From Gluconobacter japonicus (GTDB taxonomy: Bacteria; Pseudomonadota; Alphaproteobacteria; Acetobacterales; Acetobacteraceae): 64,000 nucleotides of DNA. The stretch is taken from assembly GCF_002723975.1 (NCBI RefSeq), contig NZ_BEWO01000009.1, positions 1 to 64,000 of the forward strand, read 5' to 3'. Below are positions 2,052 through 15,710 of the stretch, one piece after another (position 1 is the first letter of the stretch; the number at the start of each line of letters is the position of its first letter). Position numbers and translations under genes: made by a program. The notes beneath the pieces were generated by a model, which was given only the letters and a program-made list of their open reading frames with translations, was not told the DNA's origin and searched no databases.

Positions 2052-2615
2052 TCAGTCCTCGACCTGCTCGACAGACTGCACTTCCGGCACATAATGACGG
2101 AGCATGTTCTCAACACCATGCTTCAGCGTCGCGCGGGAAGACGGACAGCCGGAACAGGCGCCCTGCATCGTCAGGTAAACAATTCCGTCCTTGTAGCCCC
2201 GGAAAGCAATGTCGCCACCATCTCCAGCCACAGCCGGACGAACACGCGTATCCAGCAAATCACGGATGCGAACCACAACGTCAGCATCTTCCGGCGCAAC
2301 ATCGTACTTCAGGGCTTCATCACCGCCAGCGAGTACAGCTTTGCCGCTCTCAAAGAACGTCGTGAGCGTGCTGAGCACAACCGGCTTCATGTCTCCCCAA
2401 CTGACGTCCGGCGCCTTGGTGATGGAAACGAAATCGCTGCCCAGAAAGACGCGCTTGACGTCCGGCAGAGCAAAAAGCGTTTCAGCCAGCTCGGAACGCC
2501 CTTCAGCAGCTGAGGCCTCTCCAAAATCAACCGTGCGCGAGTCTCCGGTTACAGGGCGTCCCGGAAGAAACTTCAGCGTCGCAGGATTCGGGGTATCTTC
2601 GGTTTCAATGAACAT
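2052..2615 (-). CDS. NifU/NfuA-type iron-sulfur cluster scaffold or carrier protein
   Basis: The protein has two parts. The N-terminal Nfu_N domain opens MFIETEDTPNPATLKFLPG. A C-terminal NifU domain follows with DGGDI at about 132-136 and the cluster-binding Cys-x-x-Cys at 154-157 (ACSGCPSS). Such proteins carry 4Fe-4S clusters to apo-enzymes; the alphaproteobacterial form resembles mitochondrial NFU1. A longer frame opens at 2690, but GAGGA lies 10 bases before ATG 2615 and the protein family begins there. Four bases separate it from the nitroreductase gene. Confidence 0.85.
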   Translation of the reverse strand: MFIETEDTPNPATLKFLPGRPVTGDSRTVDFGEASAAEGRSELAETLFALPDVKRVFLGSDFVSITKAPDVSWGDMKPVVLSTLTTFFESGKAVLAGGDEALKYDVAPEDADVVVRIRDLLDTRVRPAVAGDGGDIAFRGYKDGIVYLTMQGACSGCPSSRATLKHGVENMLRHYVPEVQSVEQVED

Positions 2616-2711
2616 CGTCGTCATGTCCTCAGTGTCCAGTCCGTCCCTGACATGTGCCACTTCAGCCCTCGGCGCAAGGGTCTGGACCAATCCAGTCCCA
2701 CTTCCCGGCCT

Positions 2712-4004
2712 TCAAACCTGTGGCCGTTCACCAATCGTCGGCTTGCGGGCAGGCGGCAGAACAATTGTCGCACAGAGCCCGCCGTACCCCTTTTCGGCAT
2801 CGCCCCGCCCCAGACGTAAATAGCCCCCTTCCCGGGCAATCTCGCGGGTCACAATGGCCAGTCCCAGCCCGATCCCGCCCGTCTGACGGGAGCGGGACCC
2901 TTCCAGACGGTAGAACGGTGTCAGAACACGCTCATATTCACTTTCAGGAATACCCGGACCATTGTCCTGAATGGCAATTTCTATGGAGTCATCGTCCCGC
3001 ACCGTCAGCGTGGCCAGAACATTTCCCCCGTAATTCAGGGCGTTCTCAATCAGGTTGGACAGAACACGCTTGATCGCCAGGGGGCGGACGCGGACCAGCG
3101 CCCGATCCGGGCCTTCGTAGCGGGCATCCTTGCCATGATCGGCGTGGTCATCGATGAGCGTCGTCAGCGTAGCGACAATATTGATGGTCTTTGGTTTTTC
3201 CGGATCATCCGCGCCTGCGAGATACGCGAGAATGCCATTCACCATTCCCTCCATCTCATCCAGATCCGATTCGATGGCGGCCTGCGCCTCCCCATCGTTC
3301 AGAAAACCGCATCGAAGCCGAAGCCGTGTCAGAGGTGTTCGCAAATCGTGAGAAACGGCCGCCAGAGCCTGCGTCCGGTCATTGATGAGGCTCTGAATAC
3401 GGCGCTGCATGGCGTTGAGGGCGCGCGCAACATCCCGGACTTCCCGGGGACCACGCTCCGCAAGTGGCACCCAGGTTTCATTGGAACCAATCTTGTCCGC
3501 AACGGATGCCAGAGCCCGCAAGGGCATGCTCAGGCCACGAATGAGCATGGTCGCCGCGATTGCCACGGCACAGGCTGCAATCGCGGCGGAGGCCAGACCA
3601 CGGGTGAAATGATGTCGTCCCAGCAGCCCCGGAACCCGGAAATGGATGTAACTTCCATCCGGAAGACGCTCGGTTCCCAGCACGTCAGGGGATCCGCTTC
3701 CCAGCGTATAGAGATCAAGCTGGGCCTGAGCGAGGATAGGATCATCCTTGATCAGCCGCTTCGTCAGGTCCAGCAGGACCTGCGGCCGGTGTCCCGGCAG
3801 CAGCGGCATGGATGTCACGGGCTGCCAAGCAACGCTCAGTTCACTGCCCGAAAGCATAACCGCCAGAAAGGAGCGCTGCGTAACAGGTGCAGCCGCCAAC
3901 ACACGCAAATTGGTGCTCAGCCCTTCTCCAAGCTGTGCAATCCGCACGTCATCAACAATGTAGGTTTCAGCCTCGCCATAAAAAACGGCATTGGCGAGGA
4001 ACAC
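2712..4004 (-). CDS. Sensor histidine kinase, OmpR/EnvZ-like
   Basis: Domains run in the order periplasmic sensor (about 10-130), membrane segment (about 134-155), HAMP, dimerisation domain with phosphoacceptor His219 (AAVSHDLRTPLTRLRLR), and ATPase domain with an N box (NLIENALNYGG), DNGPGIP and a GIGLGLAIV lid. The first conventional start is GTG 4004, but it cuts through the first membrane helix. In-frame codons upstream read ILLWPLGLVGRVCVVLTVAV. Real translation probably begins at CTG 4088, which overlaps the regulator's stop (CTGA), or at ATT 4082. It pairs with the response regulator immediately upstream. Confidence 0.88.
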   Translation of the reverse strand: MFLANAVFYGEAETYIVDDVRIAQLGEGLSTNLRVLAAAPVTQRSFLAVMLSGSELSVAWQPVTSMPLLPGHRPQVLLDLTKRLIKDDPILAQAQLDLYTLGSGSPDVLGTERLPDGSYIHFRVPGLLGRHHFTRGLASAAIAACAVAIAATMLIRGLSMPLRALASVADKIGSNETWVPLAERGPREVRDVARALNAMQRRIQSLINDRTQALAAVSHDLRTPLTRLRLRCGFLNDGEAQAAIESDLDEMEGMVNGILAYLAGADDPEKPKTINIVATLTTLIDDHADHGKDARYEGPDRALVRVRPLAIKRVLSNLIENALNYGGNVLATLTVRDDDSIEIAIQDNGPGIPESEYERVLTPFYRLEGSRSRQTGGIGLGLAIVTREIAREGGYLRLGRGDAEKGYGGLCATIVLPPARKPTIGERPQV

Positions 4005-11382: not shown

Positions 11383-12825
11383 TCAGAGAACACCCTTGAT
11401 CTTACTCAGCCCGGCAATCAGGGCCTGACGCTCCCGCTCCGCCTGGTCTGTCGGTCCGAGACGGAGAATCCACGAAGGGTGGGCCAGAGTGAGATGCGCC
11501 CACCCCTCGCCTGCATGCTCTTGCAAGGTGCCACGGACGTCTTTCAACCGATCCGAGGGACCACTCACCGCTCGCAGAGCCGTTGCCCCCAATGAGACAA
11601 TCAGTTTCGGCTTCACCAGGGCAATTTCTCGCTTGAGCCACGGCTGACAGGCAGAAATATGCTCGACCCCAGGTGCCTGGTGGATGCGTCGTCGACCGTT
11701 GACCGTAAATCGGAAATGCTTGACGGCATTCGTCAGGTAAAGCGCCTCGCGGGCGACGCCGGCTTCTTCCAGACATCCCATCAGAAGCTGCCCGGCTGGT
11801 CCCACGAACGGACGGCCTGCCAGATCTTCCTGATCTCCAGGCTGCTCCCCTACAATCATCACCTTCGCCGTTTCCGGCCCTTCTCCCACCACTGCCTGTG
11901 TAGCGTGACACTGCAAAGAACAGGCCCGGCAGGCCCGAATATCCTGTGCAAGCTCCGTCATACTCCCGGGAACATGGGCCTGAATGGTGATAGCGCTTTG
12001 TCTGGCCTGAATGGCCTGATGAAATTTTGGCGCAGGCAACGCTTCTCTCGCAGCCATTTCCGCAACACGCTTTTCAGCTTCCGCCACGAGCTGAGGAATC
12101 AGGGCGGCTTCCGGCAGATTCTTCCAGTACCGGCGTGGCATCTCATTTCGCATGGCTTTTGTGCGAACACGGGCCGGATTGAAAGTCGAGGCATAATAGG
12201 TCTGCCACAACTGTTCGACATCATCCTCAAGAGCCTGCTTTTCACACGGCTTGAACGAGCAGTTCAGCGTGGTGCCATTCCAACTTATGGAACCTCTCGG
12301 CGTCAGGATAAGCCAGTCCATGTCTGCGAAACGCTTGGCAAAAAAGGACGAGACCTTCTCCAGAACATGATGATCCGGCTCGAACCATGACAGGAATCGT
12401 CGTCGACCGTTTTCGGTTGGATCCTGCTCACGGAAACGGACAAATGCTGTCATTTTATGCGCGGCCCGGCGAACCTGTTGCACCATGCGCCGGGCCTGAC
12501 CCACGTCCGGGTCAGTGGGAACGGACAGAAGATCCGGATCCTCCTGCAAACGCCAGAGCAGACGATACGCCAGTGCGAACCGCTCCGGGCTGGAATGGCA
12601 CAGAACATCTTTCAGAACAGGCAGATTGGAGGCTTTCAACCTGACGTCCCGCTTGATCTCGCCGGTAAAAGACGTCGTCTCCGCACAGGAGAAAAGATCT
12701 GCGTTCTTTCCCTGCAAACACCAGACAATCTGCTCAGGAGGAACTTCACGCTGGAGGGCAGCCCGCGCCGTCTGGCGCCAAGGCTCGAACGCGCTGGTGT
12801 CTGCCAGAGTAACAACAACAGACAT
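11383..12825 (-). CDS. UdgX-family uracil-DNA binding protein fused to a TIGR03915/DUF4130 domain
   Basis: This is a two-part protein of 480 residues. Residues 1 to about 260 match the DUF4130/TIGR03915 putative DNA-repair domain. Residues about 290-480 are an Fe-S uracil-DNA glycosylase superfamily domain. Clues are CRACSLQC at 299-306, GEQPGDQED (326-334), GRPFVGPAGQ, the R-loop RRRIHQ with His382, CQPWL, and HPSWILR (449-455). The RRIH loop is diagnostic of UdgX, in which the histidine forms a covalent bond with the uracil site. The start overlaps the radical SAM stop as TGATG. A LexA box in front of the upstream gene suggests damage induction. Confidence 0.88.
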   Translation of the reverse strand: MSVVVTLADTSAFEPWRQTARAALQREVPPEQIVWCLQGKNADLFSCAETTSFTGEIKRDVRLKASNLPVLKDVLCHSSPERFALAYRLLWRLQEDPDLLSVPTDPDVGQARRMVQQVRRAAHKMTAFVRFREQDPTENGRRRFLSWFEPDHHVLEKVSSFFAKRFADMDWLILTPRGSISWNGTTLNCSFKPCEKQALEDDVEQLWQTYYASTFNPARVRTKAMRNEMPRRYWKNLPEAALIPQLVAEAEKRVAEMAAREALPAPKFHQAIQARQSAITIQAHVPGSMTELAQDIRACRACSLQCHATQAVVGEGPETAKVMIVGEQPGDQEDLAGRPFVGPAGQLLMGCLEEAGVAREALYLTNAVKHFRFTVNGRRRIHQAPGVEHISACQPWLKREIALVKPKLIVSLGATALRAVSGPSDRLKDVRGTLQEHAGEGWAHLTLAHPSWILRLGPTDQAERERQALIAGLSKIKGVL

Positions 12826-14057
12826 CAGAGAAGGCTCATCTGCTGCGGCGCGGGCAGGAACAGAGTTCGCAAATCCTGTCGATCGGTCAGGCGCGCGGGG
12901 CTCCATCCGATCGCTTTCACAAACGGACGCACCTTTTTAATGGACACATTCAGGCGTCCCAGATCTTCCAGACGGATCGCCCTGTGCTTCCGCGCCATTA
13001 GAAGAGCCTGAACGGTTTTCACCCCCAGACCGGGCACCCGGAGCAGCATTTCCTTGGACGCCCGGTTCAGATCCACCGGAAACTGTGCACGGTTATCCAG
13101 AGCCCAGGCAAGCTTTGGGTCGATTTCCAGATCCAGCATTCCACCGGGCCGGGATGCCGTCAGTTCCCCAAACTCGAAACCATAGAACCGAAATAACCAG
13201 TCGGCCTGATAAAGCCGATGCTCGCGCTGAAGCGGAGGACTGCGAACCGGCAGAATAGCGGATGCATCCGGGATAGGACTGAATGCCGAGTAATACACCC
13301 GGCGCAATCCGTAAGAGCCATACAGACCGGAACTGCTGGCCAGAACGTCCCGATCCGTCGCAGCATCGGCTCCGATAATCATCTGGGTGCTCTGACCGCC
13401 CGGTGAAAACCGTGCTGCACGGCGGCCGGTATGCGTTTTTTCCTTTGCCGCATCGATCTTAAGCCGCATATCTCCCATGGCACGCCGGATGCCACCTGCG
13501 TCCTTTTCAGGCGCATAATCCTTGAGGCCCGTTTCTGTCGGCATCTCGACATTGATGGAAAGGCGATCCGCGTAAAGACCTGCTTCTTCCAAAAGCTTGG
13601 GAGACGCATCCGGAATGGTCTTGAGATGAATATATCCCCGAAATCCATGCTTCAATCGCAGATCACGCGCGACCTGAACAAGCTGTTCCATGGTGTGATC
13701 CGAGGACTGAATGATTCCCGAGGACAGGAACAGACCCTCGATACAATTGCGCCGATAGAACTCCAGCGTCAGCCAGATTACTTCGTCTGGAGTGAAGCGG
13801 GCACGTTCTACGTTTGAAGAAGACCGGTTGATGCAATAGGCGCAATCATACACGCAGAAGTTGGTCAGCAGGATTTTGAGAAGCGAAATGCAGCGGCCGT
13901 CTGGCGTATAAGCATGGCAGATTCCGTTACCGGTTGTGGACCCAAGACCACCCGTTTTGGCAGAGTCCCGGCGCGTGGAACCACTGGATGCACAGGACGC
14001 ATCATACTTCGCGGCATCGGACAGAATCGCGAGACGTTCGGACAGAGATTTCTTCAT
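12825..14057 (-). CDS. Putative DNA modification/repair radical SAM protein (TIGR03916 type)
   Basis: The protein has 410 residues and a Cys-x3-Cys-x2-Cys cluster motif at 68, 72 and 75 (NFCVYDCAYC), typical of radical SAM enzymes that bind 4Fe-4S and S-adenosylmethionine. Near the C-terminus, residues about 340-360 (RVPGLGVKTVQALLMARK) form a helix-hairpin-helix DNA-binding motif. This combination and the adjacent UdgX fusion define the TIGR03916/TIGR03915 pair, whose reaction is not established. The start ATG lacks a clear ribosome site and lies 5 bases from a LexA box, suggesting a short or absent leader. Confidence 0.88.
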   Translation of the reverse strand: MKKSLSERLAILSDAAKYDASCASSGSTRRDSAKTGGLGSTTGNGICHAYTPDGRCISLLKILLTNFCVYDCAYCINRSSSNVERARFTPDEVIWLTLEFYRRNCIEGLFLSSGIIQSSDHTMEQLVQVARDLRLKHGFRGYIHLKTIPDASPKLLEEAGLYADRLSINVEMPTETGLKDYAPEKDAGGIRRAMGDMRLKIDAAKEKTHTGRRAARFSPGGQSTQMIIGADAATDRDVLASSSGLYGSYGLRRVYYSAFSPIPDASAILPVRSPPLQREHRLYQADWLFRFYGFEFGELTASRPGGMLDLEIDPKLAWALDNRAQFPVDLNRASKEMLLRVPGLGVKTVQALLMARKHRAIRLEDLGRLNVSIKKVRPFVKAIGWSPARLTDRQDLRTLFLPAPQQMSLL

Positions 14058-14062
14058 GCCAT

Positions 14063-14077
14063 GTTCTTATTTCGTTC
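14063..14077. promoter_or_regulatory. LexA (SOS) box, GTTC-N7-GTTC
   Basis: The sequence GTTC-ttatttc-GTTC is a perfect match to the alphaproteobacterial LexA direct-repeat consensus. It lies 5 bases upstream of the radical SAM start codon, where it would cover the core promoter of the radical SAM/UdgX operon. Both neighbouring genes are DNA-repair candidates, which makes a chance match unlikely. Confidence 0.78.
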
Positions 14078-14234
14078 TTATTCATAAAATGCAAGAACTG
14101 CATGAAATTTACCGGTTGTTTGCCATTTTCCCGTCAGACCTCGTCGTCGTTTTTTAACGATGCAGATTCAGGTTCCCTTAACCATTCAAAGACTATCGTG
14201 AAGGGGCAAAACTGCACCGACGGAGAATATCTCG

Positions 14235-15710
14235 ATGTCCATGTCCATCAATACAAATACAGCCGCCATGTCGGCTCTTCAGGTCCTGAACCAGACGACG
14301 GACCAGCTGAGCAAGACGCAGAATGCTGTCTCCACAGGCAAGAGCGTCAGCTCCGCTTCTGACAGCCCGGCCATCTACGCCATTTCCCAGACAATGAACT
14401 CCCAGATTTCGGCCCTGTCCGGCGTCTCTACGGGTCTTCAGTTCGCTGGTCAGGTGCTCAGCACCGCCACGAAACAGGCATCCTCTATCTCTGGCGTCCT
14501 GAGCAGCATGTCCGAAACGGTCACGAATGCTGCCAACAACGGCGAGAACCAGGATACGCTGAACTCCCAGCTGAGCAGCTATCTGTCCCAGATCGACGTT
14601 GCCACGTCCAACTCAACCTTCCAAGGCGTGAACCTGCTGTCCGGTTCTACCAGCAACAGCGTCAAGTACACGCAGATTTCCGCAGCGCAGGACATCAACG
14701 GCAACCTGTTCACGCTGAACGGTGCTGACGCCACGTCGACGGGTCTGGGCCTTCAGGGCCTGAGCACGGACATGAAGGGCGTCACGATTTCCACGAGCGG
14801 CATCACGGCGCTGGCTGGCACAGGTGCGACCGCTACGACGCTGACTCTGAAGAACCAGTCTTCCGCCGACAGCGCAAATGCAACCGCTTCCAACCCTGCC
14901 ATCACGACATCTTTCGTGCTTGATTCCAAGCCGGGTGATGCCACGAATGGCGCCGCAACATCCATTGGAACCGCCATCGCAGCAGGCCTCACAGATAACA
15001 CGACCTCGGTAACCGTCGGCTCCAACGGAGCACTGACCATTACTGGCGCCACGTCCAAGACGGCTTCTGACGGCACGACAACTTATTCTCTGACCAATGG
15101 CGACAGCATTACAGCCAAGGCTGATGCCAGCGGCAACATGACCTACAACATCGCCAAGGTTGGTGATCTGGATGCCAACGGCAATGCCAAGACGCTGACG
15201 CAGGTTGTCGATGTTGACGTCTCCGGCGCGTCTTCCACCACCACGAAGAACGATCAGCTCTCCACGCTGGTAACAGCTCTTGGTAACGCTGGTTATGGTG
15301 CCCAGATGGCCAATGATGGCACCCTGACGATTGCTGGTGGCAACCTCGACGCAGCAGACGCAACGGCAACCACGCCGTCTGTCAGCCTGACAAACGCCAC
15401 GGGAACCTCCACTGTTGCAACGACCTCCGGCACGGATGTCGTTCAGCTGGCGGTAACAGGCGCCATCAACAAGATGAGCCGTATTTCTTCCAGCATCGGT
15501 GTGGCCTCTAACACCGTTACGCAGCTTCAGACGTCCAACAGCACCCTGTCCGACGCTCTGACAACCGGCGTTGGTGCTCTGACGGACGCTGACCTTGCAG
15601 CAGAAAGCGCCAAGCTGACCTCCCTACAGACGAAGCAGCAGCTGGCCATCCAGTCCCTGTCGATTGCGAACTCGCAGTCTTCCAACATCATGTCGCTCTT
15701 CCGCGGCTGA
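14235..15710 (+). CDS. fliC: Flagellin
   Basis: This is the filament subunit, 491 residues. The conserved N-terminal coiled-coil region (MSINTNTAAMSALQVLNQT, residues 3-21, then STGKSVSSASDSPA) and the C-terminal region (ending SLSIANSQSSNIMSLFRG) frame a variable middle rich in Thr, Ser, Ala and Asn. It has no cysteine or tryptophan in the parts read, normal for flagellin. GGAG lies 9 bases before the ATG. A stem-loop follows the stop, then flaF. No other flagellar structural genes are nearby, so this is a flagellin/regulator pair away from the main cluster. Confidence 0.95.
   Translation: MSMSINTNTAAMSALQVLNQTTDQLSKTQNAVSTGKSVSSASDSPAIYAISQTMNSQISALSGVSTGLQFAGQVLSTATKQASSISGVLSSMSETVTNAANNGENQDTLNSQLSSYLSQIDVATSNSTFQGVNLLSGSTSNSVKYTQISAAQDINGNLFTLNGADATSTGLGLQGLSTDMKGVTISTSGITALAGTGATATTLTLKNQSSADSANATASNPAITTSFVLDSKPGDATNGAATSIGTAIAAGLTDNTTSVTVGSNGALTITGATSKTASDGTTTYSLTNGDSITAKADASGNMTYNIAKVGDLDANGNAKTLTQVVDVDVSGASSTTTKNDQLSTLVTALGNAGYGAQMANDGTLTIAGGNLDAADATATTPSVSLTNATGTSTVATTSGTDVVQLAVTGAINKMSRISSSIGVASNTVTQLQTSNSTLSDALTTGVGALTDADLAAESAKLTSLQTKQQLAIQSLSIANSQSSNIMSLFRG

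Follow-up and report, generated by a model that had tools for sequence, protein, structure and literature searches.

Here, we describe a two-gene locus of Gluconobacter japonicus which we predict to be an SOS operon repressed by LexA, a reading to which we assign a probability of about 0.9. The genes encode a radical S-adenosylmethionine (SAM) protein and a DUF4130-UdgX fusion protein and lie in a stretch of 64,000 nucleotides (assembly GCF_002723975.1, contig NZ_BEWO01000009.1, positions 1 to 64,000), which is referred to as the window. A predicted LexA box with a perfect match to the alphaproteobacterial motif GTTC-N7-GTTC occupies positions 14063-14077 (GTTCTTATTTCGTTC, that is GTTC-TTATTTC-GTTC; GAACGAAATAAGAAC on the gene strand) and is separated by a gap of five bases (14058-14062) from the ATG of the radical SAM gene at 14057. 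This box recurs before most alphaproteobacterial orthologues, gives way to a different LexA motif outside the class, and appears to follow the radical SAM-DUF4130 core rather than UdgX.

The radical SAM gene (12825-14057, minus strand, 410 amino acids) matches TIGR03916 with 553.9 bits (cut-off 343.5), and the nearest named relatives of its product among the matches listed are two Gluconobacter records with 87% identity. Its stop codon overlaps the start codon of the fusion gene (11383-12825, minus strand, 480 amino acids) in the sequence TGATG. Within the fusion, both portions of which are encoded on the minus strand, DUF4130 (12106-12825) matches TIGR03915 with 206.3 bits (cut-off 112.25) and UdgX (11404-12102), which carries GEQPG, RRRIH and HPS motifs, matches TIGR03914 with 284.6 bits (cut-off 189.95); Pfam agrees with these assignments. 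The initial annotation of the window had named the perfect box five bases from the radical SAM start as well as the TIGR03916/TIGR03915 pair with its fused UdgX and TGATG junction, and both statements were borne out by the pattern match, the profile scores and the sequence.

Conservation and group-specific change of the box

The box motif alone is no more frequent in the window than chance predicts. Three perfect copies were found where 1.94 are expected, a number reached by 39 of 100 shuffles, and the remaining two copies fall within frames of 462 and 297 codons. The complete genome of 3.16 Mb contains 113 copies of GTTC-N7-GTTC and 35 of the pattern written backwards. The significance of the box therefore derives from its conservation before orthologues and not from rarity of the motif.

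Orthologous loci were collected in three sets. Of 150 Acetobacteraceae genomes, 58 have a TIGR03916 match above its cut-off, and 57 of these make up the family set (G146, which is in pieces, was left out). The same holds for 84 of 398 genomes of the phylum, from which the phylum set takes all 29 outside the class and 41 of the 55 inside; of the other 14, two are already in the family set and 12 were left out. A third set of named loci comprises the best 80 of at least 590, with the class taken from record titles and recall. Pooling of the three sets and removal of the duplicates L215 and L237 gave 175 alphaproteobacterial and 30 other loci; further Gluconobacter loci (L284-L304) were counted apart from the 175. 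Start codons were picked by a script, and the shuffles used for the 57-locus and 175/30-locus counts preserve letter content only.

Among the Acetobacteraceae, a perfect box is present within 100 base pairs (bp) of the radical SAM start in 43 of 57 loci, as compared to a mean of 0.165 and a maximum of 2 of 57 in letter shuffles of the same stretches; the coding portions of these loci (67,330 positions) contain no perfect box at all. The initial annotation had named absence of the box before such orthologues as its refutation, and on this count it was not refuted. In the whole class, 158 of 175 distinct loci have a perfect box at a distance of up to 100 bp, where shuffles gave a mean of 0.47 and at most 4; in 143 of the 175 the box lies within 50 bp of the start. 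The radical SAM gene is present in 22 of 26 Gluconobacter genomes, and every copy is preceded by a perfect box no more than about 110 bp upstream; these copies come from close relatives and are hence not independent. The box lies at position -20 in 20 of the 22 copies, and its 15 bases are identical in 19, with divergent flanks. At two Gluconobacter loci (L284 and L285), the radical SAM copy is diverged (62-64% identity) and its box lies some 100-110 bp before the gene. No match to the DUF4130-UdgX protein was found in the stretch of L285, and the sequence of its box equals that of a Neokomagataea plasmid copy (L247).

LexA motifs differ between bacterial groups, and CTGT-N8-ACAG is the motif of gamma- and betaproteobacteria. 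Outside the alphaproteobacteria, CTG-N10-CAG precedes the radical SAM gene in 24 of 30 loci (shuffle mean 0.61, maximum 3). Of these 24 sites, 21 lie fully upstream and three overlap the start codon, and 19 have the form CTGT-N8-ACAG. The alphaproteobacterial motif occurs within 150 bp in none of the 30 loci; reciprocally, CTG-N10-CAG is found within 150 bp in three and CTGT-N8-ACAG in none of the 175 alphaproteobacterial loci. Thus, the motif in front of the same gene switches between groups as LexA motifs do, which is the strongest reason to favour LexA over some other factor that binds GTTC.

Outside the Pseudomonadota, the evidence is anecdotal. Five further contigs, namely Acetoanaerobium L244 and four stool records labelled "Bacteriophage sp." and taken for Gram-positive DNA, are too few for a rate. 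Four of them contain a site resembling CGAAC-N4-GTTCG (up to two mismatches, 220 bp upstream, a count made without shuffles), three of them several such sites; in L253 the sites lie at least 162 bp upstream, and L251 has no site of this Gram-positive type. None of the LexA-type motifs tried, including two Bacteroidetes motifs of PMC8565304, was found within 200 bp in Phocaeicola (L241), Parabacteroides (L242), Fusobacterium (L243), Gemmatirosa (L245) or a record labelled as Acinetobacter phage (L246). Together with L251, these loci speak against a universal rule.

Promoter architecture and SOS circuitry

The commonest placement of the box in the alphaproteobacterial loci, found in 48 of 158, spans positions -17 to -3 relative to the start codon. 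Among these 48 loci, T at -12 (46 loci) and A at -11 (47 loci) are almost invariant, and T at -35 (40), T at -34 (29) and G at -33 (40) are frequent. With transcription starting at the A of the ATG, these would be the positions of textbook -10 and -35 elements, LexA would sit over the -10 element, and the mRNA would lack a leader. In the window and the other Gluconobacter copies, the pattern is shifted by about three bases, so that a leader of 0-3 bases is predicted. The putative -35 element of the window is TTGCAT (14089-14094, minus strand), and the Gluconobacter loci L030 and L287-L304 likewise have TTGC at this distance, although their flanks vary. A candidate -10 element, AATAAG (14066-14071, minus strand), lies within the box at a spacing of 17 bp and was placed according to the 48-locus pattern. 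The choice of start codon is constrained by in-frame stops within 12 bases upstream in several of the 48 loci and by a conserved DAAKYD motif of the radical SAM protein which begins at residue 14. Judging from these spacings, we lean towards transcription starting at the ATG or within about three bases of it, so that the mRNA would have no leader or hardly any. In about half of the alphaproteobacterial loci, including the window, the box should be near enough to the ATG to cover the -10 element.

The box covers what is probably the -10 element of a sigma70-type promoter, and LexA bound there should therefore keep RNA polymerase out. Upon DNA damage, RecA-driven cleavage of LexA would open the promoter, and the second gene would be translated by coupling at TGATG.

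The same genome encodes LexA (171.6 bits, cut-off 110.95), and a perfect box lies about 80 bp before the lexA start. Another box precedes a gene which reads as imuA from its translation, and boxes are also located near genes reading as parE and rarA; flanks were inspected for a subset of the 113 genomic sites, in selected stretches. Two further perfect boxes were observed among them. One, GAACATAAAGGGAAC, precedes a gene read as mraZ by about 220 bp (G000:C2:176300-179300, L074, box at locus position 1549). The cell-division cluster usually begins with mraZ, and a link between the SOS response and cell division is possible. The other, GAACCAATAAAGAAC, is located about 95 bp before a frame of 217 codons and outside any frame of at least 100 codons (G000:C6:93500-96500, L069, locus position 1496).

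Several observations weigh against LexA control in the form proposed here. A perfect box within 100 bp is missing from 17 of the 175 alphaproteobacterial loci. Among the 14 misses in Acetobacteraceae, a one-mismatch box no farther than 200 bp away is present in ten and absent from the remaining four (L013, L028, L059 and L063). Outside the class, six of the 30 loci lack a perfect box (Xanthomonas dyei L204; L122-L124, which belong to one family; L121; and L091), and the alternative LexA patterns tried gave no match. Moreover, no perfect box was found at recA of the Gluconobacter genome within the stretch examined. Concerning the promoter, only 81 of 158 alphaproteobacterial boxes end within five bases of the start, and the -10 element of the window itself is weak. 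Shine-Dalgarno-like words are about equally rare upstream of genes with close boxes (11 of 81) and the rest (15 of 77), and thus add no support for leaderless transcripts.

The radical SAM-DUF4130 core and UdgX

Comparison of fused and unfused loci indicates which part of the system the control follows. Where enough downstream DNA was present, fused DUF4130-UdgX loci carry the box in 141 of 156 cases in alphaproteobacteria and in 8 of 12 others. A box was also found at 9 of 11 alphaproteobacterial loci with DUF4130 only (not 10 of 12, because the G071 locus proved to be a fusion cut by the end of its stretch) and at 15 of 17 such loci outside the class. UdgX elsewhere in the genome was searched for in 24 of 29 DUF4130-only cases. 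TIGR03914 is above its cut-off in five of the 24 genomes and nowhere in the other 19, 17 of which keep the box. Furthermore, no box was detected in the stretches examined around three unlinked DUF4130-UdgX paralogues from Acetobacteraceae (L306, L307 and L308; a fourth unlinked UdgX, in G016, was left out). The DUF4130 part of these second proteins looks strongly diverged. Radical SAM-DUF4130 pairs without an adjacent uracil-DNA glycosylase (UDG) occur in Parabacteroides and in the Acinetobacter-labelled record according to their annotation, as well as in Fusobacterium and Acetoanaerobium according to frames read by eye.

Since the box persists without UdgX, the unit under SOS control appears to be the radical SAM-DUF4130 core, to which UdgX is joined as a module. 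The initial annotation had put the covalent uracil-DNA trap at the centre of the damage response; retention of the box in genomes without UdgX and its absence from the stretches examined around three unlinked paralogues argue against this part of the proposal. If control tracks the core, a different gene and a different lesion become relevant, and uracil is not the obvious substrate.

The CxxxCxxC motif of the radical SAM protein reads CVYDCAYC (C68, C72 and C75). These cysteines and three more (C22, C47 and C56) are invariant in two alignments, and the six-cysteine pattern, with somewhat loose spacing, was recovered in 204 of 205 sequences, the sole miss having its start called inside the gene. 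The three additional cysteines possibly ligate a second cluster. A C-terminal helix-hairpin-helix at residues 327-358 gave a weak Pfam match (E 2e-4) under the Pfam cut-off. The structural model (predicted local distance difference test, pLDDT, 84) matches HydE, lipoyl synthase and biotin synthase, and aligns to 7o1o with Z 16.4 and a root-mean-square deviation (rmsd) of 2.3 over 211 residues. In Gemmatirosa L245, a relative with 36% identity (2309-3760, plus strand) lacks the three additional cysteines, and the next frame reads as a PAS-type kinase rather than DUF4130. We saw no sign of a phage-borne system: searches of viral contigs gave no relatives with the L248 query and two with the A1 query. 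Ten phage records match. One of them, L246 (CAKLQH020000003.1, labelled Acinetobacter phage), carries glyS and glyQ beside the radical SAM-DUF4130 pair and hence looks like bacterial chromosome with a label that is probably wrong.

For DUF4130, the best structural matches of the model (pLDDT 88) are DHH/DHHA1 proteins, as we take the matched entries to be. The PAP phosphatase 8a8k_A was matched with a Foldseek probability of 0.98 and E 0.01 (VIA Z 7.2, rmsd 4.8, 176 residues aligned) and RecJ 5f54 with Z 6.7 and rmsd 4.3 over 181 residues; Cdc45 and a family II pyrophosphatase ranked lower. A Z below 8 can reflect a common arrangement, Foldseek returned no match at E 0.001, and its longer list includes unrelated proteins; the likeness is suggested because a single superfamily fills the top rows of the second alignment. 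At the sequence level, DHH/DHHA1 is not among the 11 Pfam families listed for 48 DUF4130 members (E up to 10), nor among the three weak matches of a profile search of the PDB. An hhalign comparison with RecJ gave a probability of 0.1%, with the RecJ GGGH opposite the RRRF-SWF stretch of DUF4130 in its single alignment, and no D-H-H is present in the invariant or near-invariant columns of the 48 sequences. We therefore regard a DHH/DHHA1 (RecJ-like) fold of DUF4130 only tentatively as a lead from the model, without support from sequence.

The loop histidine of UdgX makes the covalent bond to DNA. Across 168 fusions, of which some stretches end inside the domain, GEQPG was found in 159, the [KR][RKQ][RK][IVL]H loop in 134 and HPS in 150. 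For UdgX itself, a KRRIH loop and covalent bond formation are described in the part of PMC10359453 considered here.

A radical SAM enzyme behind SOS-type boxes of varied motif in most Proteobacteria examined points to a damage-repair activity; no assay of such an activity was found in the open-access literature searched. Whether the radical SAM-DUF4130 core acts directly on damaged DNA is, in our estimate, an even bet. The helix-hairpin-helix-like stretch lies on the radical SAM chain, and DUF4130 may hold nucleic acid beside it. UdgX would be an optional module, fused in many Proteobacteria, which would tether the complex to uracil or abasic sites. The identity of the lesion and the chemistry are speculative. 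As a bolder and decidedly tentative proposal, the pair could be a widespread SOS-induced direct-reversal repair enzyme that is older than the uracil module, because LexA-type boxes of at least two, possibly three kinds precede it with or without UdgX. DUF4130 would then be a catalytically dead RecJ/Cdc45-like DHH-DHHA1 domain holding damaged single-stranded DNA for the radical SAM enzyme, UdgX a later addition which locks the complex onto uracil or abasic sites, and the operon would be expressed in many alphaproteobacteria from a leaderless mRNA, transcribed from the start codon itself, with LexA bound on the -10 element.

Competing explanations and known systems

Two alternatives concern the box itself. 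A motif which is present 113 times in the genome and not enriched in the window could have matched by chance and lack any regulatory role. This is hardly credible given its recurrence in 158 of 175 alphaproteobacterial loci where shuffles average 0.47, the identical 15-mers in Gluconobacter and the change of motif outside the class. The box also sits in an intergenic region shared with a divergent gene starting at 14235, which reads as flagellin-like from its translation, and might serve that gene instead. We consider this very improbable, since the position of the box tracks the radical SAM start, within 50 bp in most alphaproteobacterial loci; upstream neighbours were not compared locus by locus.

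Two others accept LexA control and differ in what the operon does. It might mainly remove uracil put in by SOS polymerases, UdgX doing the work; this resembles the published interpretation in the considered part of PMC8565304 and is in line with motifs kept in most fusions, such as GEQPG. We judge this unlikely, as the box is found in 17 of 19 genomes without UdgX above cut-off, Parabacteroides, Fusobacterium, Acetoanaerobium and the Acinetobacter-labelled record have the pair without an adjacent UDG, and the three unlinked DUF4130-UdgX paralogues show no box in the stretches examined. The pair might also make or remove a DNA base modification instead of repairing a lesion, as allowed by the family name "putative DNA modification/repair radical SAM protein". 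The variety of SOS-type boxes in front of the pair would suit inducible repair better than constitutive modification, which makes this option quite improbable.

The SOS and LexA control put forward by the initial annotation is strongly supported by the conservation of the box, its change outside the class and the box before lexA; the link is not new. According to the passages of PMC8565304 considered here, LexA-type control of a COG1573-COG4277 operon was predicted in Bacteroidetes, and SOS regulation of the same putative base excision system had been reported in Verrucomicrobia and Alphaproteobacteria. By our own reading, COG4277 and COG1573 correspond to the two genes of the window. The SOS link of the gene pair is already published for other bacteria, and the Gluconobacter case adds to it. 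In the open-access literature searched, we found no earlier report of UdgX-independence, of the leaderless promoter or of the DHH-like fold, and recognised no experimental work on the pair, in Acetobacteraceae or elsewhere. Word searches in selected Caulobacter and SOS papers gave no match; the part of PMC7739468 considered mentions just "a radical SAM protein", and the LexA regulon table in the corresponding part of PMC9380542 includes a "Radical SAM protein" (vnz_31145) of Streptomyces venezuelae, to which we assign no family.

Among known systems, the DHH/DHHA1 superfamily (RecJ, Cdc45, PAP phosphatase and family II pyrophosphatase) provides the top structural matches of the DUF4130 model. 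Unlike its members, DUF4130 has no conserved DHH motif and no profile or Pfam match to them, and Z does not exceed 7.2. UdgX as solved in PDB 6ail, 8iie and other entries, the two named ones presumably from Mycobacterium smegmatis, shares with the window protein the UDG fold, GEQPGD, a KRRIH-type loop (RRRIH here) and HPS. The solved chains comprise about 205-229 residues, whereas UdgX of the window is fused behind DUF4130 and encoded in an operon with the radical SAM gene. SplB, of the spore photoproduct lyase type, likewise combines a radical SAM enzyme, DNA repair and SOS control, the latter in several species according to the considered part of PMC8565304. However, SplB is absent among the family matches of the radical SAM protein, which instead matches TIGR03916 and has three additional invariant cysteines and a DUF4130 partner. 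The closest counterpart is the COG1573-COG4277 operon, which by its description in the same part of PMC8565304 is a gene pair of this kind, likewise subject to LexA-type regulation. It was read there as uracil base excision repair, whereas the present comparison, which covers Acetobacteraceae, points to control that is kept without UdgX, a box placed on the putative -10 element and a predicted near-leaderless start.

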